From an uncultured Pelagibacteraceae bacterium (GTDB lineage Bacteria > Pseudomonadota > Alphaproteobacteria > Pelagibacterales > Pelagibacteraceae), in NCBI GenBank assembly GCA_902559075.1, contig CACEGO010000007.1:1-39736 (forward strand): a stretch of DNA of 39,736 bases, in the 5' to 3' direction. Below are positions 6,239 to 24,674 of this stretch, piece by piece. Position 1 is the first letter of the stretch. The number at the start of each line of letters is the position of its first letter. A model generated the notes under the pieces. It did no database searches, was not told the origin of the DNA, and worked only from the letters and a program-made list of their open reading frames with translations. Made by a program: the position numbers and the translations under genes.

Positions 6239-7192
6239 TTATTTTTGTATAGTGTTTAATTTGTTCAACTCTTCCATGAACTGAGGTATTGCCTCGAATA
6301 AATCTGCTTCAAGACCATAATCTGCTACACTAAAAATTGGCGCTTCGCCATCTTTATTAATTGCAACAATTACTTTACTTTCCTTCATTCCAGCTAAATG
6401 CTGAATTGCTCCAGAAATTCCAATAGCAATATACAAATCTGGAACAACTACTTTTCCAGTTTGTCCTACTTGATGATCATTGCTTATGTAACCAGCATCT
6501 ACTGCTGCTCTAGATGCTCCAATCGCTGCACCAAGCTTGTCAGCTATTTCTGTTATTAATTTAAAATTATCTCCACTTTGCATTCCTCTTCCACCTGATA
6601 CAACAATTCTAGCAGTACCAAGTTCAGGTCTGTCAGATTTTATTTCTTCTCTTTTGACAAATTTAGTATTTGAAAATTCTTCACCAGCTTCAACTTTTTC
6701 AATTGCAGCTGATCCTCCAGAACTTTCACATGGATCGAAAGAAGTAGGTCTTATTGTTACACATTTCTTTGAATCATTACTTTTAATTGTTGCAAAAGCA
6801 TTTCCTGCATAAATTGGTCTTAAAAAAGTATCAGATGATATTACTTTAATAATGTCGCTTACTTGTGAAGTATCAAGATGAGCAGCAATCCTCGGCATTA
6901 AATTTTTACCAAATGTATTTGCTGAACAAACGATATGAGAATAATTCTCTGCAAGTTTGACAATTACTGGAGTAAAATTTTCTGCTGTGAAGTTTTCATA
7001 ATGAGCCGCTTCTACACTTAAAACTTTTTTGACAACCGGAAGTTCAGATAGTTGTTTTGCAGCTTCTGCAGTATTTTGACCAATGATCACTGCATGAACA
7101 TCTGAGTCAATTTGTGACGCTGCGGTCGCTGCATTTAGAGTAAATGGTCTTAATTCTTTATTATTGTGCTCTGCTATAAGTAAAACAGCCAT
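6239..7192 (-). CDS. etfA: Electron transfer flavoprotein alpha subunit
   Basis: This 317-residue FAD-binding subunit of ETF has the C-terminal FAD signature GASRAAVDAGYI, HQVGQTGKVV and PDLYIAIGISGAIQHLAGM (about 225-275), followed by AINKDGEAPIFSVADYG. The N-terminal domain is shorter than in mitochondrial precursors, as expected without a targeting peptide. Its start overlaps the etfB stop by one base (TAATG). With EtfB it forms the soluble heterodimer that collects electrons from the flavoprotein demethylases of this region. Confidence 0.97.
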   Translation of the reverse strand: MAVLLIAEHNNKELRPFTLNAATAASQIDSDVHAVIIGQNTAEAAKQLSELPVVKKVLSVEAAHYENFTAENFTPVIVKLAENYSHIVCSANTFGKNLMPRIAAHLDTSQVSDIIKVISSDTFLRPIYAGNAFATIKSNDSKKCVTIRPTSFDPCESSGGSAAIEKVEAGEEFSNTKFVKREEIKSDRPELGTARIVVSGGRGMQSGDNFKLITEIADKLGAAIGASRAAVDAGYISNDHQVGQTGKVVVPDLYIAIGISGAIQHLAGMKESKVIVAINKDGEAPIFSVADYGLEADLFEAIPQFMEELNKLNTIQK

Positions 7193-7941
7193 TATATTAC
7201 CTTTGCCTCATTTTTTAATTTTTGAACTAATTCAGCAACATTTGCTACTTTTATTCCCGCTTTTCTTTTTGGAGGTTCCTCTACTTTTAATTGTTCTAGT
7301 CTTGGTGAAACATCTACACCTAAATCAGACACAGGAATTTCCTCAATCGGTTTTTTCTTTGCTTTCATTATATTTGGTAACGAAGCATATCTAGGTTCAT
7401 TCAATCTAAGATCGCAAGTTACAATAGCTGGAACATTTATTTCAATTGTTTCAAGACCTTCATCTATTTCTCTAGTTACTTCTAATTTATTTTCTTTAAC
7501 ATCAATCTTTGATGCAAACGTTGCTTGAGGCCAGTTTAATAAGGCACTCAACATTTGTCCTGTTTGATTACAATCATCGTCAATTGCTTGTTTACCCATA
7601 AACACTAAGTCTGGTTTTTCTTTATCAACTACTTTTTGTAAAATTTTTGAAACAGCTAAAGGCTCAATCTCACTATCAACTTTTACATGAATGCCTCTGT
7701 CAGCACCAACAGCTAAAGCTTTACGTACTGTTTCTTGTGCTTTTTCTTCTCCGACAGTTATTGCAACTACCTCAGTTGCTTTGCCTGCTTCTTTAATTTT
7801 TACAGCTTCTTCAATTGCATTATCGTCTGGTGGGTTGGTTGACATTTTGACATTATCAGTAACCACACCCGTTCCATCTTCTTTCACTCTGATTTGAACA
7901 TTGTAATCAATTACTCTTTTTACAGCGACTAAAATTTTCAT
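7192..7941 (-). CDS. etfB: Electron transfer flavoprotein beta subunit
   Basis: This 249-residue protein begins [15 protein letters not shown] and carries the AMP-binding and dehydrogenase-recognition segments of EtfB, including [17 protein letters not shown] (about 114-130) and the ETF-beta signature [20 protein letters not shown] (about 154-173). It overlaps the preceding dehydrogenase stop and the following etfA start by one base each. The context makes it the electron acceptor for the 810-residue dehydrogenase upstream and probably for the paralogue farther upstream. Confidence 0.97.
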
Positions 7942-12954: not shown

Positions 12955-13146
12955 TTATTCATCTTTAGCTGAAATTTTTTTTTTACAAAATTCTTTAGCC
13001 TCTTGAATAGTCATTGGTTTTTCTAATTTTTGACTACCAGCGACACATGCATCAATTGCTCTTTTTGTATTATGATCTCTAAAGTCTAAAACTATATAAA
13101 GTCCTACAAAAATAAATATCACTATTAAAATATTTTTTATTTTCAT
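12955..13146 (-). CDS. Small single-pass membrane protein of unknown function
   Basis: A 63-residue ORF with a hydrophobic segment at about 4-21 and a charged tail containing two cysteines (Cys34 and Cys54) spaced as if for a disulfide in a helical hairpin. It starts inside the stop of the crotonase-like gene (ATGA, 13143-13146) and ends 5 bases before the CoA-binding protein gene. That coupling supports real translation. I do not recognise the family. Confidence 0.72.
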   Translation of the reverse strand: MKIKNILIVIFIFVGLYIVLDFRDHNTKRAIDACVAGSQKLEKPMTIQEAKEFCKKKISAKDE

Positions 13147-13922
13147 TTATTCTTCCAATTAGGTTTTCTTTTTTCAAGAAAAGCTGAAATACCTTCTTTA
13201 GCGTCCATTGCCATCATGTTAAGGGTCATCATTTTACTTGTATAAGCGTAAGCTTTACTTAATGGCATTTCTAATTGTTTATAAAAAGCTTGTTTTCCAA
13301 TTTTAATTGTTAAATTAGATTTAGAAGCAATTTTATTTGCTACTTTTAATACTTCATTGTTTAGTTTTGATTTTGAAAAATAGTCGTTTATTAAGCCTAT
13401 TTCTTTTGCATAATTTGCTTTGATAGGCTCTCCTGTTAATAGCATTTTCATCATTGGTTTTCGATTAATCTTTCTACTAACGGCAACCATTGGTGTACTA
13501 CAAAATAAACCAATATTTACACCAGGAGTAGCAAATAACGCATCCTTAGTACTGTAAGCTAGATCACAACTTGCAACCAATTGACATCCAGCTGCGAATG
13601 CTGCTCCATGAACTTTTGCTATTACTGGCTTTCTGCCCTCAACAATTTGAAGCATTACTTTTGAACAAAGATTAAATAATTTTAAATATTTATTTTTCTT
13701 TTTAAGACCTCTCACCTCTTTTAAATTGTGACCAGCACTAAATCCTTTACCAGCGCCCTCCAATATTATGACTTTAAATTTTTTATCATTATCTAAATTT
13801 TTTAAAGCCTTTAATAAATCGGAAAGGTTCTTGAATGATAAGGAGTTATACGTTTTTGGTTCATCAATTATTATTGATGCGACTTCATTATTAATTTTTT
13901 TAATTTTGATATTACTAGTCAT
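13143..13922 (-). CDS. Crotonase-superfamily protein (ECHDC3-like) without the usual catalytic glutamates
   Basis: A 259-residue crotonase-fold protein. The CoA and oxyanion-hole segments are clear: FSAGHNLKE (61-69) and HGAAFAAGCQL (105-115). In enoyl-CoA hydratases two glutamates act on the enoyl thioester; by motif alignment the first position here is Gln114 (GCQL) and the second is Asn136 (TPGVNIGL). Both glutamates therefore appear to be missing, as in ECHDC3-type relatives, so simple hydration is unlikely. The ATG follows directly after the stop of the 2OG-oxygenase gene, and the stop overlaps the small membrane ORF by 4 bases. The substrate is unknown. Confidence 0.85.
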   Translation of the reverse strand: MTSNIKIKKINNEVASIIIDEPKTYNSLSFKNLSDLLKALKNLDNDKKFKVIILEGAGKGFSAGHNLKEVRGLKKKNKYLKLFNLCSKVMLQIVEGRKPVIAKVHGAAFAAGCQLVASCDLAYSTKDALFATPGVNIGLFCSTPMVAVSRKINRKPMMKMLLTGEPIKANYAKEIGLINDYFSKSKLNNEVLKVANKIASKSNLTIKIGKQAFYKQLEMPLSKAYAYTSKMMTLNMMAMDAKEGISAFLEKRKPNWKNK

Positions 13923-14774
13923 TTAATCAGTTAATCCATCGGATCTAGCCTGATTTCTTTCTATATGAATTGGTAAAACTTTACCATAAATAGCTTTAGA
14001 GTGTTCTGGTGTGTTCACTCTCCAAGGATCTAAAACATAAGCAGGAATACACATATATCTAGATTTCTGGCCTTCTACCTTTGTTACTCTATGTAAAGTA
14101 AATCTCCCTTTGAAAATTTGCAAATCGCCTGGCTCTAATTTGAGTTGTCTTACTCTAGTTCTATCTCCTGCGATAACTTTTTGAACTTCATTGAAGTTTT
14201 CATTGCCTGGTTCTCTTATATTTGGACAATACTCAAATATACCTCCCTTTTCAGGTTTTTGAATCATTAAGCTAAGTGTAAATTCACAACTATCAAAATG
14301 CCATGGAAGAACACCATCTGGTCTCATAACATTGTATGCATGACATGCTAAAGGATCTGCCCATCTGTAGATAGGTGAAACACCTAAACAAGCAGATACA
14401 AATTTTAAAAGTTCTTCAGTTTCGTAGAGATATTTCATCTCGGAATCTTTTGGAAAACAATCTGAATTTAAATATCCATTATATCTATTCATAAAAGTTC
14501 TTTTTGGGTGATCTTTTGGTAACGAAGGATCGTCCTTTGCATACAAATAAGCATTTATACTCTCTTTAGACATATAAACTTCATCTAATTGTTTTTCTAA
14601 CTCAGAATTCATTACCTTAAGTGATTTAGGTAAAATAAAATTTGGGATTGTTGAACAACTATGTTGATCAAGTTCTTCTTTGCATTTTTTAATTAGATTT
14701 TTAATTATTGGTGAATTTAAATCGTATATTGGATATTTTTCTAAATCTACAATAGTCTTAAGTCTATCATTCAT
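13923..14774 (-). CDS. Putative 2-oxoglutarate/Fe(II)-dependent oxygenase
   Basis: A 283-residue protein with a plausible double-stranded beta-helix iron site: WHFDS supplies His159 and Asp161 (HxD), LHRV supplies distal His228, and Arg239 in KSRYMCIP is placed to bind 2-oxoglutarate. PGDLQIFKGRFTLHR is the usual strand before the distal histidine. Such enzymes hydroxylate, halogenate or demethylate small molecules. It follows a kinase and a nucleotidyltransferase gene with a 6-base gap, so the three may modify one molecule. It is not a typical PhyH protein by length or N-terminus. The substrate is unknown. Confidence 0.75.
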   Translation of the reverse strand: MNDRLKTIVDLEKYPIYDLNSPIIKNLIKKCKEELDQHSCSTIPNFILPKSLKVMNSELEKQLDEVYMSKESINAYLYAKDDPSLPKDHPKRTFMNRYNGYLNSDCFPKDSEMKYLYETEELLKFVSACLGVSPIYRWADPLACHAYNVMRPDGVLPWHFDSCEFTLSLMIQKPEKGGIFEYCPNIREPGNENFNEVQKVIAGDRTRVRQLKLEPGDLQIFKGRFTLHRVTKVEGQKSRYMCIPAYVLDPWRVNTPEHSKAIYGKVLPIHIERNQARSDGLTD

Positions 14775-14780
14775 TTAATT

Positions 14781-15155
14781 TTATTTTAACTTACCCTCTT
14801 CTCTCATTTTTGCTCTTATCTTGGTAGCTGATATTTTTTGAGTTTCTTCATCCAAAACTATTTCTTCAATCTTGTATCCAACACCTCTACCATAACAAAT
14901 ATTTGTAATGTTAGGTACTAACATTATTTTAAATTGCCCTTCAAATTTAGGATTTAATCTATCTTCAATATTTTTTTTTACTGTTTCAAAATCAAAAGGA
15001 TTATCATCTACACCTTGTACATCTCTAATTTGAATACAAACTTGTCCAGTTTTTTTAATAATTTCTTTAAACAAGGTATAATGTCCATCGTGAAAAGGTT
15101 GCCATCTTCCTAGCATTTGTGCTGTTGGTTTTTTGTTATCCCATTGATGTGTCAT
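14781..15155 (-). CDS. Cytidylyltransferase-like nucleotidyltransferase
   Basis: A 124-residue single-domain HxGH nucleotidyltransferase. The nucleotide-binding motif HDGH is at 22-25, after GRWQPF, and the second signature ISATKIR is at 108-114. Enzymes of this fold transfer CMP or AMP to a phosphorylated substrate. I chose the ATG at 15153-15155 rather than the earlier in-frame start at 15188, because it has a strong GAGGAG Shine-Dalgarno sequence and makes a 4-base ATGA overlap with the preceding kinase stop. It is shorter than glycerol-3-phosphate or pantetheine-phosphate transferases of known role. The acceptor is unknown; the adjacent kinase may make it. Confidence 0.85.
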   Translation of the reverse strand: MTHQWDNKKPTAQMLGRWQPFHDGHYTLFKEIIKKTGQVCIQIRDVQGVDDNPFDFETVKKNIEDRLNPKFEGQFKIMLVPNITNICYGRGVGYKIEEIVLDEETQKISATKIRAKMREEGKLK

Positions 15156-15562
15156 TTTTTTATCTCCTCTATTATTTTTGGTGCCCAATTTTTTGCATCC
15201 TGAGTTGTTACGTGAAAATCAAAATTCTTAGGATTAACAAACATTTGATTGGTGTCTTCAAATCTTCCTTTTTTAATTGTATCGACCCACACTTTAAAAT
15301 CTGCCGGAAACAAGCTTCTTGCTTCAGGGGTTGGGGCAATAAAATCAGCAATTACATAATAACCTTCTGCTTTTAATTTTAATGCTGCTTCAGCCATTCT
15401 TTTTGCTTGTCTTACCCTTCCTTCTTCTGAAAAATCCCAATCATTTGCAGCTTTTCTTACTTCATCTGCATTTAATCTTTTTGCATTTAAGAGTGGAGCC
15501 ATTTCATCAGCTAGAGTTGTTTTACCTGCTCCAGGCAAACCCATTACTAAAATAATTTTCAT
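15152..15562 (-). CDS. Small P-loop kinase, adenylylsulfate-kinase-like
   Basis: A 136-residue kinase with Walker A GLPGAGKT at 8-15, then LNADEVRKAANDWDFS, which resembles the DGDNVR...DLGFS segment of CysC, and YVIADFIAPTPEARSLF, which resembles its AFISP...R segment. APS kinases are about 190-200 residues, so this is a short divergent relative that may phosphorylate a hydroxyl on another small molecule. It overlaps the DddP-like stop by one base and the nucleotidyltransferase start by four. No sulfate-assimilation gene is nearby, which argues against true APS kinase activity. Confidence 0.78.
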   Translation of the reverse strand: MKIILVMGLPGAGKTTLADEMAPLLNAKRLNADEVRKAANDWDFSEEGRVRQAKRMAEAALKLKAEGYYVIADFIAPTPEARSLFPADFKVWVDTIKKGRFEDTNQMFVNPKNFDFHVTTQDAKNWAPKIIEEIKK

Positions 15563-16797
15563 TAAATATCTTCTAACGGATGATGGGACATTAATTCAAG
15601 TCCATTTTCACCAACAAGGTACTGTTGTTCAAGTTTTACACCTTCTTTACCGCCAACTTTACCAATATAACTCTCAAGTGTGATAGTCATATTCTTCTCA
15701 AAGGTTCCCCCTTCTTCTCCACCATCTGTTGGATATCTTATTTGAGGCCACTCGTCACATAAACCTATTCCATGAACCATGCATGAATACCTATTTCCAT
15801 AATATTCATCAGGCAAAACCCAAGATTTTTTAATAAATTCTTTAAAACTCATTCCTGGTTTGATTAATCTAAAATTATGATCTATTTGATTTCTAGCCAT
15901 TGAATAAAGTTTTTTTTGCTCATCATTAAAATTATTTCCAACTACAAAAGCTCTTGATATATCCGCACAATATCCATAGGGACCTACCATATCTGTATCA
16001 AAAGCAACAATTTCTCCTTGTTGCATAACTTTATTGCTACTCTCTTGCATCCATGGATTTGTTCTTTCTCCAGAAGATAAAATCCTACACTCAATCCATT
16101 CACCCCCATTTTCAATATTTGTTTTATGTAAAATTGACCACAATTCATCTTCTGTCATTCCTGACTTAAGATCTGATCTCATTTTAGATACACCTTTTTC
16201 TGCAACTTCTATTGCTGCTTTCATACATATTAATTCATCAGGTGACTTTATTACTCTTGCTTGTTCTAAAATTAATTTCGCATCTACAATTTCAATGCCC
16301 TCTCTATTTAAAGCTGTAACAGCAGGACCATTAAGAACATCAATTGCAATTTTTTTAGATTTAAAAAAATTATTTGATAAATCTTTAACTTCATTTATCC
16401 ATTTTGATAATTGTAAATTTGCTTGGTCTCCATTACTAAAATAATCCCATGTAATTGCAGGTCTTATTTCATCAATTAGATTTAAATGCTTAGATAGTAT
16501 CTCACAATTAAAATACTCATAAAGAATAGTTGGCCCATTGACTGGAACAAAACAATATCTTGTTAAATTATGCATATTATAGACGCTCATATTCACAGTA
16601 TCCAAAGCATAACGAACATTCACTGGATCAAATAGAATACAAGCTTCTAAATTGTGTTTTACTAATTCTTTTCTAACCCTATCTAAACGATATGATCTTA
16701 ATTTATCAAAATCAATCTCATCTTCTCTTAATCTTTTTTTGGTAATAAAATTTTGTCTTGGTTTTATCTCTGGAGATATTTTTCTTTTTAATTTCAT
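15562..16797 (-). CDS. dddP: DddP-like M24 metallopeptidase-fold protein (candidate DMSP lyase)
   Basis: The 411-residue protein has a creatinase N-domain followed by an M24 pita-bread domain. It closely resembles DddP DMSP lyases rather than ordinary Xaa-Pro peptidases: LFDPVNVRYALDTVNM (55-70), GGEWIECRILSSGERTNPW (231-249), EIVAFDTDM (262-270) and VHGIGLCDEWP (341-351). Predicted metal ligands are Asp267, Asp269, Asp279, His342, Glu375 and Glu390, with Asp348 at the position of the catalytic base Asp377 of Ruegeria DddP; the spacing agrees to within two residues. DddP cleaves DMSP to DMS and acrylate. It is co-directional with the betaine demethylation genes and coupled to the small kinase. 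A related non-DMSP activity remains possible. Confidence 0.8.
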   Translation of the reverse strand: MKLKRKISPEIKPRQNFITKKRLREDEIDFDKLRSYRLDRVRKELVKHNLEACILFDPVNVRYALDTVNMSVYNMHNLTRYCFVPVNGPTILYEYFNCEILSKHLNLIDEIRPAITWDYFSNGDQANLQLSKWINEVKDLSNNFFKSKKIAIDVLNGPAVTALNREGIEIVDAKLILEQARVIKSPDELICMKAAIEVAEKGVSKMRSDLKSGMTEDELWSILHKTNIENGGEWIECRILSSGERTNPWMQESSNKVMQQGEIVAFDTDMVGPYGYCADISRAFVVGNNFNDEQKKLYSMARNQIDHNFRLIKPGMSFKEFIKKSWVLPDEYYGNRYSCMVHGIGLCDEWPQIRYPTDGGEEGGTFEKNMTITLESYIGKVGGKEGVKLEQQYLVGENGLELMSHHPLEDI

Positions 16798-16815: not shown

Positions 16816-17187
16816 TTAAAATTCATAAAAAGTATATTTTGCTAAAATTTCTTCACCAGGTTCAATGTCTTTTAATGAAACAAGATAAAAATACTTAAAA
16901 TTATTATTATTTTTATCTTCTAGTGTCTTTTTGATTTTCTCTTCAATATTCTGACCAAAGACATATTTAGGAAGTGTGTTTGATGATAATTTAGTGACAT
17001 TAGGATTTTTTGAGTGATTATAGAAACCACCAAGAGGAGTTCTAATATACATGTTTTGAAATTCATCATGTTTTACATGTGATATCCCTATAAAAGAATT
17101 TTTCTGAATTTTAGTTTTAGAAAATAAGCCCAAACCATCAATTTTTGAATCTTTTATCGTAAGATTTTTTGGCAACGGTCTATACAT
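16816..17187 (-). CDS. Small SET-domain protein
   Basis: A 123-residue minimal SET domain: IDGLGLFSKTKIQKNSFIGI (about 16-35), the NHSKNPNV motif (about 56-63) that lines the AdoMet pocket, and DIEPGEEILAKYTFYEF at the C-terminus, including the terminal tyrosine region. SET proteins methylate lysine or arginine residues of proteins. Its ATG lies inside the end of the methyltransferase gene (8-base overlap), so it is translated with a small-molecule-type methyltransferase. The substrate is unknown. Bacterial stand-alone SET proteins of this size are common but little studied. Confidence 0.8.
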   Translation of the reverse strand: MYRPLPKNLTIKDSKIDGLGLFSKTKIQKNSFIGISHVKHDEFQNMYIRTPLGGFYNHSKNPNVTKLSSNTLPKYVFGQNIEEKIKKTLEDKNNNNFKYFYLVSLKDIEPGEEILAKYTFYEF

Positions 17188-17815
17188 CTTTCGTAACCCT
17201 GTACAAACCTAACCAAGCATTTACATCTTTGCTAGCAATATAGTCTGATTTAAAAAACTCTATTTCTGTCCATTTATTATTTTGGTTTAAACTTATGATT
17301 TTTTTATCAAACCCATATTCTTCATGAATACCTTCGTTAATAGTAAAACAAATTAACCCTCCTGATTTTGTAATTCTTACAAACTCATCTAGGGCATTTG
17401 GTTTTACATGTCCAAAAGTAAATGTTCCAACACACATAACAGCATCATATGAATTATCTTTTGCATCAATTGTTTTATTAAGATCAACTTTTGTTAATTT
17501 TTGATAAAGATTATTTGGAACAGAATCTAATAGAGTTTGTGATAAGTCTGCTCCATGAAAATTTTTAAAACCGTATTTTTTTAGCTCTATACCAACTAAA
17601 CCAGTGCCACATCCAGCATCAAAAATTAAAATATCTTTATTCTTCTCGTGTGCATTAAATGTTTCTGCGGTTTCTTTTGGTCCTGAATAGTTCCAATCAA
17701 CCATGTCTTTATTGTATTTATCTTTATTTCCCCACTCATCGTAGTACTTCATAACTTCATCGGTAGTTTTAAGCTTATAAATTGGAATTTTATTTCCTAC
17801 GTCTTTTTGAGCCAT
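17180..17815 (-). CDS. Class I SAM-dependent methyltransferase
   Basis: A 211-residue Rossmann methyltransferase. Motif I (IFDAGCGTGL) is at about 64-73, an acidic residue follows in HGADLSQTLL, motif IV-like YDAVMCVGTFTFGHV is at about 124-138, and a post-motif ITKSGGLICFTINEG strand follows. It overlaps the stop of the upstream dehydrogenase gene by one base and the SET gene by eight. Its position between demethylases and a SET protein is unusual, as it uses AdoMet while its neighbours release methyl groups. The substrate is not predictable from sequence. Confidence 0.85.
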   Translation of the reverse strand: MAQKDVGNKIPIYKLKTTDEVMKYYDEWGNKDKYNKDMVDWNYSGPKETAETFNAHEKNKDILIFDAGCGTGLVGIELKKYGFKNFHGADLSQTLLDSVPNNLYQKLTKVDLNKTIDAKDNSYDAVMCVGTFTFGHVKPNALDEFVRITKSGGLICFTINEGIHEEYGFDKKIISLNQNNKWTEIEFFKSDYIASKDVNAWLGLYRVTKDV

Positions 17816-20220
17816 TAGCTTCTCATTTTTTGACCACTTGGATCATAAAGTGGTTCTTTAATTATTGAACAGTTAAATAAATCTCCATTTATCTCTACTT
17901 GAATTTTATTTTCAGAATTAATGTTTTTTTGATCAACAAAAGTAAACGCTACACTTTTATTTACAAAGTGAGCAAACCCTCCTGAAGTTACATAACCAAT
18001 ACTTTGATCTCCATTCATGACGGCTTCATTATTTGTTACATCAATATCATTTGTTTCAACAATTAGTGGTATGAGTTTATTTGAAGAATTTTCCTTTTGT
18101 GCACTTTCTTTACCAATAAACTCTTTATCCCAATTTATAAAAGCATCTAATCCTGTCTCTTTTGCTGTAAAATCTGGTCTATAATCTAAAGTCCAAGCTC
18201 CCCAATTTTTCTCTAACCTCATTGACATTAATGCTCTTCCACCAAAAGGTTTAATATTGAATTCTTTTCCTGCTTCCATTAACTCCTCGTATAATTTTAA
18301 TTGATAATGGGGTGCTACATAAATTTCATACCCAAGTTCACCTGTAAATGAAATTCGATTTATTATTGCTGGGACACTACCAACAAACATTCTCCTTGAG
18401 TCTCTAAATTTAAATTTTTCATTTGAAACATCATCTCTTACAATTTTTTCTAAAACTTTCCTTGAATTAGGTCCTGCAACAGACAATCCATGATACTCAT
18501 CAGATCTATTGGAGTAACTTAAATTAAATTTGTCTAAATTACTTTCAAACCAACGTCTATGCATTGCTTGAGCAGCTCCAGATCCAAATACCATAAATTC
18601 ATTTTCATCCAAACAAGCTACTGTTAAATCTCCACACAATTTTCCTCTATATGACAACATTGGTGATAAAGATATTCTTCCTGGTTTTGGAAGTCTTCCA
18701 GCCATTATATAATCTAAAAATTTTCTAGCGTCAGGACCTTTGAACTCATGTTTTGAAAAATTTGCAACTTCAATTAAGCCAACATTTTCTCTTACATTAA
18801 TAACTTCTTTTGATACATAATCATGAGACCTTGATCTTTTAATAGTGGGATCTTCGTGAGCATCTTCTTTATTATTTGCAAACCACAAAACATTTTCTAA
18901 TCCAAAACTATCTCCCATAACAGCACCTTGATTTACAAAACGATCATATAGTGCAGTAGTTTTTTGTTTTCTTCCTTTTGGTAAAGTTTCATTTGGAAAA
19001 GTCATAATAAATCTTCGCTCATAATTTTCTGAAGATTTTATTGTTCCATATTGAGGTGATGCATAATCTCCAAAACGAGCAACATCCATTGCCCAAACAT
19101 CAATTGAAGGTTCACCATCAATAATCCATTCTGCTATACATTTACCAACACCACCACCTTGGCAAAATCCAGCCATAACACCAACAGCAACCCAATAATT
19201 CTTCATTCCTGGCACTGGACCAATCAGAGGACTTCCATCTGGACCAAAAGTAAAAGGTCCATTAACTATATTCTTAATACCTGCACGTTCTAGCGCTGGC
19301 ATTCTTTCAAAACCAATTGCAAGTCTATCTTCAATATTATCTAACTTTGGCTCAAGTAACTCATGGCCAAAATTCATTGGTGTACCTTTTACTTTCCAAG
19401 GAGTTGATTTTGGCTCATAAGTTCCAAGCAACATTCCTTTACCTTCTTGTCTAAAATAAATATTTCCCTCAAAATCTGTTCCTATAGGTAATCTTTGGTC
19501 ACCCATTGCTTCAATTTCTGGAATAGGTTCTGTAATCAAATAATGATGCTCCATTGGTTGAACTGGAAGATTAAGCCCAGCTAGTTGACCAACTTCTCTT
19601 GCCCACAAACCACCAGCATTAATTACTATTTCAGCATTGATGTTTCCTTTTTCAGTAAAGACATCCCAAGTTCCATCCTCTTTTTGTTTCGTGTCTTTTA
19701 CGACAGTGTGAGTGTAGTATTTTCCACCATGAACTTTTGCAGCTTTTGCAAAAGCATAAGTAACTCCCGATGGATCAACTTCACCATCTATAGGATCCCA
19801 TAAAGCTAGCAAATATCTAGAAGGGTCAATTAATGGATTTTTCTTTTTTACTTCTTCCAAAGAAATAAATTCTTGGTCAAGTCCCATATATCTTGCTTTT
19901 GATCTTTCTCTCTTTAAATAATCTGCCCACACCTCATTTGAAGCTAAATAAAAACCTCCACTGGGTTTAAAGCCTACAGAATGTCCTGACTCTTTTTCTA
20001 TTTCTTTATATAAGCCTATTGTATAAGCCATCATCCTAGAGATATTAGGGTCAGATGAAATCACGTGAACATTTCCCGCTGCGTGCCAAGACGAGCCTGA
20101 AGTAAGTTCGTTTCTCTCAAGTAAAATACAATCCTTTAATCCAAATTTAGATAAATGGTAAAGGATAGAACAACCTACTACACCACCTCCTATGATTACT
20201 ACTTTGGCATGTTTTTCCAT
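17815..20220 (-). CDS. Dimethylglycine dehydrogenase-type flavoprotein (FAD domain plus GcvT domain)
   Basis: An 801-residue paralogue of the 810-residue enzyme in the same run. It has GGGVVG at 11-16, GSSWHAAG with the flavin-linking position His46, YWVAVGVMAGFCQGGGVGK in the substrate domain, and a C-terminal folate-binding half with ISFTGELGYEIYVAP. The family oxidises dimethylglycine or sarcosine, giving 5,10-methylene-tetrahydrofolate. Direct coupling to BHMT (TAATG overlap), whose product is dimethylglycine, favours dimethylglycine as substrate. It has no own etf genes and probably shares the EtfAB encoded at the end of the run. Confidence 0.88.
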   Translation of the reverse strand: MEKHAKVVIIGGGVVGCSILYHLSKFGLKDCILLERNELTSGSSWHAAGNVHVISSDPNISRMMAYTIGLYKEIEKESGHSVGFKPSGGFYLASNEVWADYLKRERSKARYMGLDQEFISLEEVKKKNPLIDPSRYLLALWDPIDGEVDPSGVTYAFAKAAKVHGGKYYTHTVVKDTKQKEDGTWDVFTEKGNINAEIVINAGGLWAREVGQLAGLNLPVQPMEHHYLITEPIPEIEAMGDQRLPIGTDFEGNIYFRQEGKGMLLGTYEPKSTPWKVKGTPMNFGHELLEPKLDNIEDRLAIGFERMPALERAGIKNIVNGPFTFGPDGSPLIGPVPGMKNYWVAVGVMAGFCQGGGVGKCIAEWIIDGEPSIDVWAMDVARFGDYASPQYGTIKSSENYERRFIMTFPNETLPKGRKQKTTALYDRFVNQGAVMGDSFGLENVLWFANNKEDAHEDPTIKRSRSHDYVSKEVINVRENVGLIEVANFSKHEFKGPDARKFLDYIMAGRLPKPGRISLSPMLSYRGKLCGDLTVACLDENEFMVFGSGAAQAMHRRWFESNLDKFNLSYSNRSDEYHGLSVAGPNSRKVLEKIVRDDVSNEKFKFRDSRRMFVGSVPAIINRISFTGELGYEIYVAPHYQLKLYEELMEAGKEFNIKPFGGRALMSMRLEKNWGAWTLDYRPDFTAKETGLDAFINWDKEFIGKESAQKENSSNKLIPLIVETNDIDVTNNEAVMNGDQSIGYVTSGGFAHFVNKSVAFTFVDQKNINSENKIQVEINGDLFNCSIIKEPLYDPSGQKMRS

Positions 20221-21260
20221 TAGTATTTAATTTCCTTATTTACTTTTTTCAAAGATTTATCAGTACCATGATGAAAATGTTTGCTCATATCAGGCATATA
20301 TTTCATAGAAATTGGTTTTTTACCAATTGCAACTGACATTTCCCTAACGTGGTGAGCTTCTGCTCCACAACAAATACCAACAAAATTTATTTTGTTTTGG
20401 ACACAATCCTTAGCAAACTCTGCCATTTCAAATCTATTACAGAACAAGTTGTCCAAAGCTACTGGGAATGCATTATCCCCAGGAATACAATTACAACCAT
20501 GATCAGTAATATTTAAAAAACCAGGTTCTTCCTCTGTTGTTCTGTACGGTACTGGAAGTCCAGCGACGTGACATGAAACTGTGTCTCTAACTTTTTTTAA
20601 TAATTTCATTGTCATTTCAGGTCCTCGATAACAATTTAAACCAACTACATCTGCACCTAAATCTTCCATCATTTTGCAAGCATCTTCAGCACTATGACCT
20701 TCTCTAGTTTTGTCACCTCTTGGAATTGCGAAATTACAAACAGCAATAAGACCAGCATCTTTAATTGATTTTAATGCTATTTTCATTTCCTCTGTCCAAT
20801 TTATTGTTTCTGCTATTATAAAGTCAACACCAGCCTCTTTTGCCCAAGCTACTTGTTCCTCATACATTTGTTGACATTGTTTATGTGTATTAGGATCTCC
20901 TGGATCAAATACATTTGTATTAGCCACATCTCCACAAACCATAAGATCTAAATCTTTGAACTCTGCAGCAGCATCTTTTGCAATTTTAAGAGCACCTTTT
21001 TGCATTGGTTCTAACAAGTGTTCTTTGCCAATTATTCTCAGCTTTTCTCTATGACCATAATATGTAAACGCCTGAACAACATCTGACCCAGCTCTAATAA
21101 ATTCTCGATGTAACTGAGTGACTACTTCCGGGTGTTCCAAAACAACTTCAGGAACAAATGGACCTGCTGATAAATATCCTCTTCTTTCCATTGCAAAAAG
21201 ATATCCCTCTGCACACATAATTGGACCTTCATTTAATCTAGAAATAAGATCTTTTTTCAT
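20220..21260 (-). CDS. bhmT: Betaine-homocysteine S-methyltransferase
   Basis: This 346-residue zinc methyltransferase should convert glycine betaine plus homocysteine to dimethylglycine plus methionine. The zinc ligands are Cys210 in VGLNCYRGP and the Cys297-Cys298 pair in VGICCGAEAHH. EGYLFAMERRGYL and AGSDVVQAFTYYGHREKL near the N-terminus match BHMT. It lacks cobalamin and folate modules, so it is not MetH. It sits between the Rieske oxygenase gene (11-base gap) and the dimethylglycine dehydrogenase-type gene (one-base overlap), which fits the next pathway step. Confidence 0.93.
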   Translation of the reverse strand: MKKDLISRLNEGPIMCAEGYLFAMERRGYLSAGPFVPEVVLEHPEVVTQLHREFIRAGSDVVQAFTYYGHREKLRIIGKEHLLEPMQKGALKIAKDAAAEFKDLDLMVCGDVANTNVFDPGDPNTHKQCQQMYEEQVAWAKEAGVDFIIAETINWTEEMKIALKSIKDAGLIAVCNFAIPRGDKTREGHSAEDACKMMEDLGADVVGLNCYRGPEMTMKLLKKVRDTVSCHVAGLPVPYRTTEEEPGFLNITDHGCNCIPGDNAFPVALDNLFCNRFEMAEFAKDCVQNKINFVGICCGAEAHHVREMSVAIGKKPISMKYMPDMSKHFHHGTDKSLKKVNKEIKY

Positions 21261-21271
21261 AATTTATCCTT

Positions 21272-22450
21272 TCATTTCATTATATTGTTTGCAACCCATT
21301 TGTGAAAATGATGGGTGGGATTATCCATCGCAGGTGAAAAATTTCCCCCGTTGTAAGATGGTGATTTTCTTCCATGCTGCATTCCCTCTATTATATTTAA
21401 ATCTTCACTTTGAACTCCTTTCCAAAGTTCGAAGTTTTGTTTTCTAAGTGATTTAAATTTCTTTGAATTTGCTGCTTCATTACCAACATAAAAAATTTCC
21501 ATATGTTCTTTTGTATATTCATTGTTAACTGGTTCTAACCAGTAGGCATAAAAATGGTCTTTATGGATCCCAAGCATAACATTTGGGAAAAGAGCAACGT
21601 ATTCAGCAATATGCTCTTGATCTTTAGGCCAGTTTGGGAATGTTGGAAATTTTAAGTTACTTTTAAACCCCGGATTATAAACCATAGTGCCTTGACCAGC
21701 AAAACGATTGGGCAGTCCTTGAATATGATAATGATCATCAATTTTTGAGTAAGAATTTAATCCAGGATGGACCCAAGGTAGATGATAACTTTCACAATAA
21801 TTTTCTATTGCAAATTTCCAATTACATTTAGCATTTAAATTAAAATAACCATAATCTTTTGAATAAACAGTTAAGTCTCTATCTTTTATTGGCCAGAATT
21901 TTTTCCATCTGTCACTTAAGGGTTTAATGTATTTTTCGAAATTAATTTCATTGTTGTTTAAATTTACAAAAATTAAATCTAACCAAACATGAGATCTAAC
22001 TTCCTTAAGACGACTTTGTGATTTGCTAAATTTATTACAATTATGTTTATTCATTCCGCCAATATGAGGTGTGGCTATTAACTTGCCGCTCATATCATAC
22101 GACCAAGAATGATACGGACATCTTATTACATTCTTAATTTTACATTTTTCTTGAAGAATCTTAAACCCACGATGACTACAAACATTATGAAAAACTTTTA
22201 TTTTGTTATTTTTATCTCGTAAAATAATTAATGGAATTCCTAGTAGATCAAATGGTTTCGCGTCTCCAATATTTGGTACGGAGCTGCCAACACCAATTAC
22301 CACCCATTTATTTTCAAAAATTTTTTTTCTCTCTATAGATAAATAATCTGGATCAGTGTAACACTCATTTGGCAAGCCATGAGCTTTATCAATATTTTTA
22401 TTTACAACTTTTATTTTTTTTAAATCAACTATTTGAGATAAATTTTTCAT
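21272..22450 (-). CDS. Rieske non-heme iron oxygenase alpha subunit (choline/betaine/carnitine monooxygenase-like)
   Basis: A 392-residue oxygenase. The Rieske cluster is formed by Cys91/His93 and Cys111/His114 (CSHRG, CPYHSW). The mononuclear iron site follows the usual ENYxExYHxxxxH form, with His223, His228 and bridging Glu220 in YCESYHLPWVH. The C-terminal EDLNIIEGMQHGR stretch is characteristic of the quaternary-amine oxygenase branch (choline monooxygenase, GbcA, CntA). It is first in a long run that continues with BHMT. No ferredoxin-reductase partner is in the window. Candidate substrates are choline, carnitine, proline betaine or glycine betaine. Confidence 0.87.
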   Translation of the reverse strand: MKNLSQIVDLKKIKVVNKNIDKAHGLPNECYTDPDYLSIERKKIFENKWVVIGVGSSVPNIGDAKPFDLLGIPLIILRDKNNKIKVFHNVCSHRGFKILQEKCKIKNVIRCPYHSWSYDMSGKLIATPHIGGMNKHNCNKFSKSQSRLKEVRSHVWLDLIFVNLNNNEINFEKYIKPLSDRWKKFWPIKDRDLTVYSKDYGYFNLNAKCNWKFAIENYCESYHLPWVHPGLNSYSKIDDHYHIQGLPNRFAGQGTMVYNPGFKSNLKFPTFPNWPKDQEHIAEYVALFPNVMLGIHKDHFYAYWLEPVNNEYTKEHMEIFYVGNEAANSKKFKSLRKQNFELWKGVQSEDLNIIEGMQHGRKSPSYNGGNFSPAMDNPTHHFHKWVANNIMK

Positions 22451-22677: not shown

Positions 22678-22726
22678 TCATTGATATGTTGTAGTGTTTA
22701 ATCGAAAATTAACTAACGGAGATATA

Positions 22727-23737
22727 ATGAAAAAATTAAAAACAATTCTATTTTCCGCGCTTTTAGCATTCGGCATGACTTCTTTTGCAAATGCTTGTGG
22801 AAAATTAGTTATTGCCGAACAAAACTGGGCATCTGCCGAGTTAATGGCAAACGTTGATAAAATCATTCTCGAAGAAGGATATGGATGTGAGGTAGAATTG
22901 GTGCCTGGTGCTACTATGCCAACATTTACATCTATGAATGATAAAGGAACACCTGACATGAACCCTGAACAATGGGCGAATGCAGTTTACACTCCTTTAA
23001 AAAAAGCAGTAAGTGAAAAAAGATTAATTATTGCTAATAAAGCTCCAATTACAGGTCTAGGAGAAGGTTGGTGGTTAAATCCAGCAGCTTTAGAAAAACA
23101 TCCAGAACTTAAAGGAATGACAGCTGTTCAAATTTTAGAACGTCCAGATTTATTTCCTGATAAAGAAGACTCATCAAAAGGTGCTTTCATGGGATGTCCA
23201 GCTGGTTGGGGATGTCAATTAGCAAATGCAAACTTATACCGAGCATTTGAAATGGAAAAAAAAGGATGGAAACTTATAGATCCAGGTTCAGCTGCTGGTT
23301 TAGATGGTTCTATTGCTAAGGCATCTGACTCAGGTGAACCATGGTTTGGTTACTATTGGAATCCTACATCAATGGTTGGAAAATATAATTTACAGCCAGT
23401 TGACTTTGGTGTTCCTTTTGCAGGTAGAGATAATTGGGATAATTGTATCACTCTTGCAGAACAAGATTGTGCAGATCCAAAACCAACTGCATGGACAAAA
23501 TCTGAAGTTAACTCGATTGTAAGTGCTAACTTTGCTAAAACTGGTGGAAAAGATGTTCTTGGTTATGTTGAAAAAAGAACTTTTCCAGGTACAGTGATGA
23601 ATGGAATGTTAGTTTACATGGCTGACAACCAAGCAAAAGGTTCTGATGCTGCTGTTGAGTTTCTAATAAAGCATGAGGATATTTGGACTAAGTGGGTATC
23701 TTCAGATGCTGCAAAAAAAATCAAAAAAAGTTTATAA
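22727..23737 (+). CDS. opuAC: Glycine betaine-type ABC transporter substrate-binding protein (OpuAC/ProX family)
   Basis: A 336-residue periplasmic binding protein with a signal peptide at about 1-23 (MKKLKTILFSALLAF...ANA). The mature part starts CGKLVIAEQNWASAELMANV, the OpuAC-type opening, and has many tryptophans suited to an aromatic cage for quaternary amines or DMSP. I chose the ATG at 22727 because it has GGAG 5 bases upstream and gives a clean signal peptide; an in-frame GTG at 22694 would add 11 unlikely residues. A hairpin follows the stop before the permease gene. The substrate range is inferred. Confidence 0.92.
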   Translation: MKKLKTILFSALLAFGMTSFANACGKLVIAEQNWASAELMANVDKIILEEGYGCEVELVPGATMPTFTSMNDKGTPDMNPEQWANAVYTPLKKAVSEKRLIIANKAPITGLGEGWWLNPAALEKHPELKGMTAVQILERPDLFPDKEDSSKGAFMGCPAGWGCQLANANLYRAFEMEKKGWKLIDPGSAAGLDGSIAKASDSGEPWFGYYWNPTSMVGKYNLQPVDFGVPFAGRDNWDNCITLAEQDCADPKPTAWTKSEVNSIVSANFAKTGGKDVLGYVEKRTFPGTVMNGMLVYMADNQAKGSDAAVEFLIKHEDIWTKWVSSDAAKKIKKSL

Positions 23738-23789: not shown

Positions 23790-24674
23790 ATGGAATTTTT
23801 TACTGAATTTCCAGAACTGGGAAGAAGATCCCAAATGGAGCTAAGAAAAGGTATCGACTTAGCTTTTAGAAATTTTTCAAAAGAATATGGAGACAGCATA
23901 GAAGCATTTTTTGATCCATTATTATTTTTTTTAGTGTCATTAGAAAAATTATTATTATCCACACCATGGATAATAATTATTGGGGTAATTTGTGGATTAG
24001 CCTGGTTAGGTTCAAGAAGTTGGAAATTAGTTTTAGGAAGTGCAATTGCTTTTTTATTAATTGGTTATTTTGGAATGTGGGAAGATTGCATGGCAACAGT
24101 TGCAATTATTACTGTATGCACAATCATATGTATTGTGGTTGGAATCCCAATAGGAATTGTAATGGCTAGATCTTCTAGAGCTGAAAAGGCAATACTTCCT
24201 GTGTTGGATATGATGCAAACGATTCCTAGTTTTGTTTATTTGATCCCAATTTTGATGTTGTTAGGAATTGGAAAAGTTCCAGGATTAATTGCTGTTTGTG
24301 TCTATGCGGTTCCTCCGATTATTAGATTAACTAATCTAGGTATTAGAGAGGTAGACAAAGAAACTTTAGAAGCTAGTGAAGCTTTTGGAGCAACCACAGC
24401 ACAAAAATTAAAATCTGTTCAAATTCCGCTTGCTTTACCTACTGTTTTTGCTGGAGTAAACCAAACCATAATGATGGCTCTAGCTATGGTGGTTATTGCC
24501 TCTATGATAGGCGTAAAAGGCCTTGGTGTTCCAATATTAAGGGCTGTTTCTAACCAATATTTAGCTCTTGGTATGATGAATGGATTAGCAATAGTTGCTC
24601 TAGCAATTGTCTTTGATAGGGTCACTCAAGAGTATGGAAGAAGAATTCAAAAGCATAGAGGTCAGATAAAATAG
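23790..24674 (+). CDS. opuAB: Glycine betaine-type ABC transporter permease (OpuAB/ProW family)
   Basis: A 294-residue inner-membrane protein. The N-terminal 45 residues are amphipathic, then about six membrane helices follow. The family block VLDMMQTIPSFVYLIPILML (about 136-155) and the EAA loop LEASEAFGATTAQKLKSVQIPLALP (about 194-218), which docks the ATPase, are both intact. It follows opuAC across a hairpin. The gene behind it is MetF-like, not the ATPase that normally accompanies this permease, so the ATPase must be encoded elsewhere. Confidence 0.94.
   Translation: MEFFTEFPELGRRSQMELRKGIDLAFRNFSKEYGDSIEAFFDPLLFFLVSLEKLLLSTPWIIIIGVICGLAWLGSRSWKLVLGSAIAFLLIGYFGMWEDCMATVAIITVCTIICIVVGIPIGIVMARSSRAEKAILPVLDMMQTIPSFVYLIPILMLLGIGKVPGLIAVCVYAVPPIIRLTNLGIREVDKETLEASEAFGATTAQKLKSVQIPLALPTVFAGVNQTIMMALAMVVIASMIGVKGLGVPILRAVSNQYLALGMMNGLAIVALAIVFDRVTQEYGRRIQKHRGQIK

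Follow-up and report, generated by a model that had tools for sequence, protein, structure and literature searches.

The closest described relative of the gene considered here is DddP, an enzyme of the M24 fold that splits dimethylsulfoniopropionate (DMSP) into acrylate and the climate gas dimethyl sulfide (DMS). The account of DddP in PMC4108388 gives the roles of its metal ligands, proposes two catalytic residues, favours Asp377 as the base acting on a substrate whose carboxylate is drawn by the metals, and describes an N-terminal extension. According to PMC5395565, DMSP is held at its sulfur by a conserved Trp together with a Tyr, and mutants support a role for DddP in DMS production by Roseobacters; the Km for DMSP given there is 14-17 mM, a range that we regard as compatible with another native substrate in the family. 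The pita-bread M24 fold is shared by creatinase (1chm) and the ectoine hydrolase DoeA (6twk), both of which act on small metabolites and not on peptides. Here we describe a DddP-related gene, at positions 15562-16797 of a 39,736-nucleotide stretch (hereafter the window) from an uncultured Pelagibacteraceae bacterium of the SAR11 order; it makes up contig C7 (39.7 kb; CACEGO010000007.1) of a 917-kb genome in 55 contigs that is 72% complete. Our analysis places the gene product in a sister clade of DddP, and we tentatively propose, at a probability of about 0.45, that its main job is a step in the breakdown of N-betaines and not the making of DMS.

The open reading frame (ORF) that a sequence-only reading had placed at 15562-16797 is real and lies on the minus strand, which that reading left unstated: it runs from 16797 to 15562 and encodes 411 amino acids, and the plus-strand translation of the interval is full of stops. 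Pfam detects Peptidase_M24 and Creatinase_N domains, and the best relatives of the protein in a phmmer search of the PDB are four DddP sequences, at E 3e-85 (4rzy) to 2e-81. The gene has a single match in the window's own genome, and among the matches listed the closest loci are from Pelagibacteraceae, some of them labelled Candidatus Pelagibacter ubique. On alignment with DddP, Asp267, Asp269, Asp279, His342, Glu375 and Glu390 fall on the metal ligands Asp295, Asp297, Asp307, His371, Glu406 and Glu421, while Asp348 and Tyr337 fall on the proposed catalytic residues Asp377 and Tyr366, which confirms the six ligands and the catalytic Asp348 claimed earlier. From this complete site and four flanking motifs the sequence-only reading had gone on to a DddP-type DMSP lyase. 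Our alignment comprises 72 superfamily rows (19 of the DddP clade, 16 of the window clade and 37 others) and one peptidase outgroup. All eight active-site residues are present in 72/72 superfamily rows, the soil plasmid proteins among them, and the single outgroup sequence has no equivalents of Asp269, Tyr337 and Asp348. Given this invariance, a complete site is not diagnostic for DddP: the eight-residue set divides the superfamily from the outgroup peptidase, not DddP from its sisters, and we have dropped it as proof of DddP identity. The motifs LFDPVNVRYA, GGEWIE, GERTNPW and HGIGLCDEWP are likewise present, but close versions of them occur superfamily-wide and do not single out DddP.

Other features do separate the window protein from DddP. 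The NCBIfam DddP model NF043017 scores it at 352.2 bits (E 3.8e-105), missing the cut-off of 600 by 248 bits; on the same model the DddP of locus L013 scores 787.4 bits and that of Oceanisphaera 626.5 bits. With E 1e-180 taken as a rough equivalent of the cut-off, 11 of 18 DddP-clade rows reach it as against none of the 53 rows outside the clade, the window protein included, among which the best value is 9.6e-155. The N-terminal motif R[VIA]EIGPT occurs in 13/18 DddP rows, 0/16 window-clade rows and 0/37 others, and only 33 residues precede Arg34 of the window protein, compared with 52-92 at the matching place in DddP rows. The position of RlDddP Trp95, which we take to be the sulfur-binding Trp, is occupied by Trp in 19/19 DddP rows and in 34/37 others, and by Tyr or Phe in 16/16 rows of the window clade. 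Likewise, where 19/19 DddP rows have Ala at Ala103, 16/16 window-clade rows have Tyr or Phe, the window protein itself having Tyr73 for Trp95 and Tyr81 for Ala103.

In the phylogenetic tree, the window clade (16 rows) is recovered with a Shimodaira-Hasegawa-like approximate likelihood ratio test (SH-aLRT) value of 100, separate from the 19-row DddP clade (SH-aLRT 98). It consists of 10 close SAR11 rows and a further 6 with 51-53% identity, among them a single row labelled Pelagibacteraceae. This is a quick tree with a very long outgroup branch, made without fungal DddPs and with row L141 dropped (4 residues after ORF extraction), and its rows include the near-identical or identical pairs L013/L014 and L100/L145. 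The window protein thus falls outside the DddP clade, a placement that the sequence-only reading had itself named as part of what would tell against its claim. A comparison of structures, which the sequence-only reading had also suggested, agrees with it better: in an AlphaFold2 monomer model built from 22 alignment rows (mean predicted local distance difference test, pLDDT, 85.2; predicted template modelling, pTM, 0.85), the predicted fold is nearest to DddP. The top four PDB fold matches are all DddP, with a template modelling (TM) score of 0.88, a root-mean-square deviation of 2.0-2.1 and 35% identity, and the remaining 46 of the 50 matches listed are peptidases, creatinases and ectoine hydrolase at TM 0.63-0.74. 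The pLDDT falls below 50 at residues 69-76 of this monomer, the stretch that includes the Trp95 position; DddP itself is a homodimer with its active site at the subunit interface. In sum, the window protein shares with DddP (RlDddP, 4rzy; RdDddP, 4b28) the two-domain M24 fold, the six metal ligands and the equivalents of Tyr366 and Asp377, but differs from it in its 35% identity, absent N-terminal motif, sub-cut-off score, own clade and operon with Rieske and HalD-like genes. The observation behind the sequence-only reading is therefore sound; the DMSP-lyase claim is unproven and less likely than was held, given residues found in 72/72 rows, a score 248 bits short and a place outside the DddP clade, and the evidence favours its second suggestion, a sister clade with a different betaine as substrate.

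Ten head-to-tail minus-strand genes extend from 22450 to 13143, with neighbours overlapping or at most 18 bases apart, and are presumably read as one transcript. The first gene of this apparent operon (21272..22450) encodes the alpha subunit of a Rieske oxygenase resembling carnitine monooxygenase, of which CntA is the closest solved structure and best PDB match, albeit a distant one (E 2e-35 only); the GbcA model, whose cut-off is 670, gives it 125 bits. To our knowledge CntAB has no M24 partner, and a literature search covering titles and abstract openings found none named for a betaine Rieske enzyme, from which we claim no wide absence. Next come a BHMT-like homocysteine S-methyltransferase (20220..21260; PF02574, 94 bits on the NCBIfam betaine-homocysteine model, below its cut-off of 338), a DMGDH-like FAD oxidoreductase with GcvT domains (17815..20220; Pfam DAO, FAO_M, GCV_T and GCV_T_C), a class I S-adenosylmethionine-dependent methyltransferase of 211 amino acids (17180..17815; Pfam Methyltransf_11) and a small protein with a Pfam SET domain (16816..17187). 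The gene for the M24/DddP-superfamily metalloenzyme (15562..16797), assigned by Pfam, the DddP profile, the tree and the fold, follows, and overlaps by one base a gene for a short P-loop kinase resembling adenylylsulfate (APS) kinase (15152..15562; PF01583). The last three genes encode a cytidylyltransferase-like protein (14781..15188; PF01467, 21.9 bits, just over the gathering score of 21), a BesD/HalD-like 2-oxoglutarate-dependent Fe oxygenase (13923..14774; PF23169, E 6.9e-12) and an enoyl-CoA hydratase family protein (13143..13922; NCBIfam PRK08139, 349 bits, above the cut-off of 313). The HalD-like protein matches Halogenase D (PDB 7u6h) at E 0.0056, with its HFD aligned to HWG; read by eye, this is an HxD motif of the hydroxylase type. 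Divergently, on the plus strand, lie genes for an OpuAC/ProX-like betaine ABC substrate-binding protein (22694..23737; 30 bits on the NCBIfam ProX model, below the cut-off of 215) and an OpuAB/ProW-like betaine/choline ABC permease (23790..24674; 269 bits on the NCBIfam choline ABC permease model, below the cut-off of 363). The betaine neighbourhood recognized earlier is thus borne out by homocysteine S-methyltransferase, DMGDH-like, Rieske and OpuAC/OpuAB-like genes, and in PMC12478193 a BHMT is predicted to remove the first methyl group of glycine betaine in SAR11.

We surveyed 201 genomes of the genus, only 29 of which reach 90% completeness with contamination of 5% or less: the M24 gene is present in 57, the main Rieske ortholog group in 105 and HalD in 65. 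The main Rieske group is found in 57/57 genomes with the M24 gene as against 48/144 others, a figure that is inflated by linkage on one contig and that counts contig-end fragments as present and leaves out 9 genomes with only a paralog (34-37% identity). HalD is found in 51/57 as against 14/144 (Fisher p 7e-28, with relatedness ignored, the genomes being related and the counts not independent), and the carnitine-dehydrogenase-like gene in 35/57 as against 39/144. Within 8 kb of the M24 gene, among the 31 of 56 Pelagibacteraceae loci that are well flanked (at least 6 kb on both sides), Rieske genes are present in 31/31, BHMT in 26/31, HalD in 24/31 and a homologue of the SET protein in 9/31. 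The next gene downstream of M24 is APS-kinase-like in 47 of the 56 loci and HalD in 6. We also studied 12 regions lacking the M24 gene, which were chosen for having Rieske, so that its retention there is no finding, and of which four (L121-L124) are incomplete. Rieske, kinase-like and cytidylyltransferase-like genes occur together in 7 of the 8 that could be read through (not in L120), the APS-kinase-like and cytidylyltransferase-like genes (14781-15562 in the window) forming a recurring pair of the cassette. Gene calls in fetched loci are greedy ORF picks, some of them plainly wrong where the locus is GC-rich.

The HalD-like oxygenase gene (13923-14774 in the window) is tied to the M24 gene and in relatives often adjoins a carnitine-dehydrogenase-like gene: of the 45 genomes with both genes, 28 have them within 5 kb of each other, and in 14 they are direct neighbours. 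In at least 8 genomes with the M24 gene (G004, G005, G078, G087, G106, G110, G144 and G186) HalD is located away from it, at the carnitine-dehydrogenase-like locus. On account of the 14/45 adjacency we considered whether the HalD-like enzyme might stand in for gamma-butyrobetaine dioxygenase, an idea weakened by the presence of a gamma-butyrobetaine-hydroxylase-like gene at the carnitine-type locus of the genus; this gene, assigned by blastp to that of L125, lies one gene from HalD in L163 and L168.

Distant relatives of the M24 gene came from a scan across genome contigs of which the best 80 of 583 rows were kept, so that the number of such relatives cannot be inferred from it. Among 24 distant loci at 46-53% identity (L087-L109 and L111) drawn from these rows, 7 have a homologue of the window's Rieske gene, namely L087, L088, L092, L093, L095, L098 and L109. 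Of 10 annotated loci on plasmids whose M24 proteins fall outside the DddP clade, 6 have a Rieske alpha-subunit gene (L025, L027, L029, L030, L031 and L162; three are from Rhizobium), and none was seen in the 6 to 9 kb covered at the other four (L024, L026, L160 and L161). The gene order in Rhizobium and Paraburkholderia is Rieske, reductase, M24, and in Caballeronia the Rieske and M24 genes are on opposite strands. The M24 proteins of these plasmids, annotated as 'Xaa-Pro peptidase family', resemble the window protein in superfamily, in the eight residues, in the absence of the DddP N-terminal motif and in the Rieske gene nearby; they differ in being only 41-45% identical to it and in having a reductase gene and a LysR regulator alongside. 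In two Pseudomonas loci (L024 and L108) the M24 gene is preceded by two HalD homologues. Other distant homologues are found near hydroxyproline-type genes of the 4-hydroxyproline epimerase, DHDPS, DAO and ALDH families, near a mandelate-racemase-like enzyme, or near BHMT and a trimethylamine-methyltransferase-family gene. Such neighbours suggest quaternary ammonium compounds in general and no single substrate.

The N-betaine proposal builds on the predicted fold, the complete metal site, the superfamily-wide Asp269, Tyr337 and Asp348, the clade position, the gene order and the co-occurrence, all of which are supported here: since a gene of a sister branch travels with genes for the breakdown of N-osmolytes, its substrate is probably other than DMSP. 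The M24 enzyme would act on a carboxylated quaternary-ammonium osmolyte, with the Rieske oxygenase, the methyl-harvesting pair of BHMT-like and DMGDH-like enzymes and the 2-oxoglutarate oxygenase as putative partners. By analogy with DddP, the metal pair would hold the substrate carboxylate and Asp348 with Tyr337 would take a proton next to it, with the possible loss from the neighbouring carbon of either an amine or a hydroxyl added by the HalD-like oxygenase. The products would then enter the demethylation steps for glycine betaine. Because of the neighbouring genes, the leading candidates for the substrate are carnitine/gamma-butyrobetaine-like or (hydroxy)proline-betaine-like compounds.

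Several observations weigh against this proposal. No neighbour fixes one substrate, and the carnitine-dehydrogenase-like gene and BKACE have no match in the window's own, 72% complete, genome. In the genus, 48 genomes have Rieske and no M24 gene, and 6 with the M24 gene have no HalD match; 17 of the 24 distant loci have no Rieske homologue in the stretch covered. Where the Trp is lost, Tyr or Phe takes its place, and an aromatic side chain of this kind could also accommodate a sulfonium. The DddP model cut-off is strict, as 7 of the 18 DddP-clade rows themselves fall short of E 1e-180. Joining the window clade and DddP in one group is not rejected by an approximately unbiased (AU) test (p-AU 0.206), and the two may hence be direct sisters. 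Moreover, true DddP is itself found among N-betaine genes. In 11 of the 24 genomes searched of another family of the order there is a DddP that shares 37-38% identity with the window protein and is represented by L013, with its 787 bits on the NCBIfam model, and in 11/11 loci it is adjoined by a BHMT 86% identical to that of the window. In one such apparent operon (L125, 6162-14105), the minus-strand order is BKACE, carnitine-dehydrogenase-like, gamma-butyrobetaine-dioxygenase-like, DddP, BHMT and DMGDH, the dehydrogenase (373 bits against 414) and the dioxygenase (310 against 415) both scoring below cut-off. In Loktanella a DddP-clade gene lies beside an operon with Rieske, iron-sulfur reductase and NADH:flavin oxidoreductase genes, and in Paracoccus yeei one is found beside a mandelate-racemase-like gene. 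Thus, the coupling of DddP to glycine betaine genes that the sequence-only reading thought worthy of note does exist in SAR11-order bacteria, but in the gene of this other family and not in that of the window, and context alone cannot separate DMSP from N-betaines as substrate.

It is for such reasons that a divergent, functional DddP-type lyase of DMSP or dimethylsulfoxonium propionate (DMSOP), in an operon that would be an osmolyte island mixing DMSP and betaine genes, deserves a hearing, doubtful though we hold it to be. All catalytic residues are kept, the nearest fold is DddP, and the DddP of the other family adjoins BHMT; moreover, the Fusarium DddP, reported in PMC4108388 to yield DMS in E. 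coli, is 32% identical to RdDddP, whereas the window protein is 35% identical to its DddP matches. The same eight residues are, however, found in the Rieske-linked plasmid proteins of Rhizobium, Paraburkholderia and Caballeronia, and the window protein scores below the DddP threshold, lies outside the DddP clade and lacks both the N-terminal motif and Trp95. The enoyl-CoA hydratase gene downstream could also speak for a lyase, as the acryloyl-CoA hydratase AcuH of DMSP degraders belongs to this family, but it is kept in 8/8 read-through loci without the M24 gene (L112-L116 and L118-L120) and is hence not tied to the latter, which weakens it as an acrylate step.

The main chemical alternative to proton abstraction and elimination is a hydrolytic step of the creatinase or ectoine hydrolase type, in which water activated at the dinuclear metal site would cleave a C-N (or beta-keto C-C) bond of a betaine-pathway intermediate. 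Creatinase and DoeA, both metabolite hydrolases, share the fold at TM 0.65-0.71, and arginase-family genes are present in L127, near the cassette, and L165, a carnitine-type locus, as is an agmatinase gene near the L029 homologue. Nevertheless, this alternative is improbable: the window protein is far in sequence from DoeA, with 38.8 bits against a cut-off of 575 and 20.3 against 613 on the NCBIfam models, and from creatinase (17-18% identity at TM 0.70-0.71), and its Asp269, Tyr337 and Asp348 are as in DddP, unlike the M24 peptidase outgroup. An Xaa-Pro peptidase, which the Pfam domains, the annotation of the plasmid homologues and the location of two Rhizobium homologues near 4-hydroxyproline epimerase genes might suggest, is highly implausible and was set aside, as the catalytic His after HGxG (2zsg) is exchanged for Asp348, Asp being present in 72/72 superfamily rows, peptidase models give at most 73 bits against cut-offs of 171 to 850, and PMC5395565 reports no measurable Val-Pro activity for RlDddP.

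A broader version of the N-betaine proposal would make DddP a single branch within a larger, metal-dependent family of betaine-cleaving enzymes. The first role of that family, and the commonest even now, would concern N-betaines of the carnitine or proline-betaine type, beside Rieske and 2-oxoglutarate oxygenases, with DMSP cleavage, given its millimolar Km, as a derived or side activity and an unrecognised betaine pathway in SAR11 based on the enzyme described here; we regard this as speculative and rather unlikely in its entirety. The more immediate consequence is for gene counts. SAR11 are among the commonest marine bacteria, and counts of dddP serve to judge DMS production. An ocean survey, which has a curation step, detects DddP at a hidden Markov model E-value of 1e-30 and lists Pelagibacterales among carriers of DddD, DddK, DddP and DddQ (PMC8520302), and the criterion in a review is E < 1e-70 with the R. 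pomeroyi DddP as query (PMC5395565). At E 3.8e-105 to the DddP profile, the window protein would by E-value alone pass as dddP, and surveys that use E-value alone could count its clade as such even though the substrate may not be DMSP. The protein also offers a lead on the role of sister DddP proteins in soil and marine bacteria, and on the Rieske, HalD-like and M24 genes as an uncharacterised module.

Further genes recur around the cassette and its relatives. In a genome without the M24 gene (L116, 3777-5956), a sulfatase-modifying-factor-like protein and a histidine-specific methyltransferase, assigned by Pfam and EgtB/EgtD-like by eye, are encoded together, and L119, likewise without the M24 gene, has from 4118 what would by length and position only be the same pair; in both loci the pair is upstream of the methyltransferase and Rieske genes. 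Proteins resembling FrhB, the F420 hydrogenase beta subunit, are found near HalD-like genes in L112 (4742-8689), L170 (11957-14861) and L024 (10258-11490), accompanied in SAR11 by a class II aldolase and a beta-hydroxyacid dehydrogenase, and on the Pseudomonas plasmid adjoining the M24 gene. The arginase-family protein near the cassette in L127 is encoded at 6428-7417, and its homologue in the carnitine-type locus L165 from 12904. Finally, a protein of the SBP56 family, to which methanethiol oxidase belongs, is encoded downstream of enoyl-CoA hydratase in L032 (13852-15225), with homologues in L113-L116 and L119 and none in the window.

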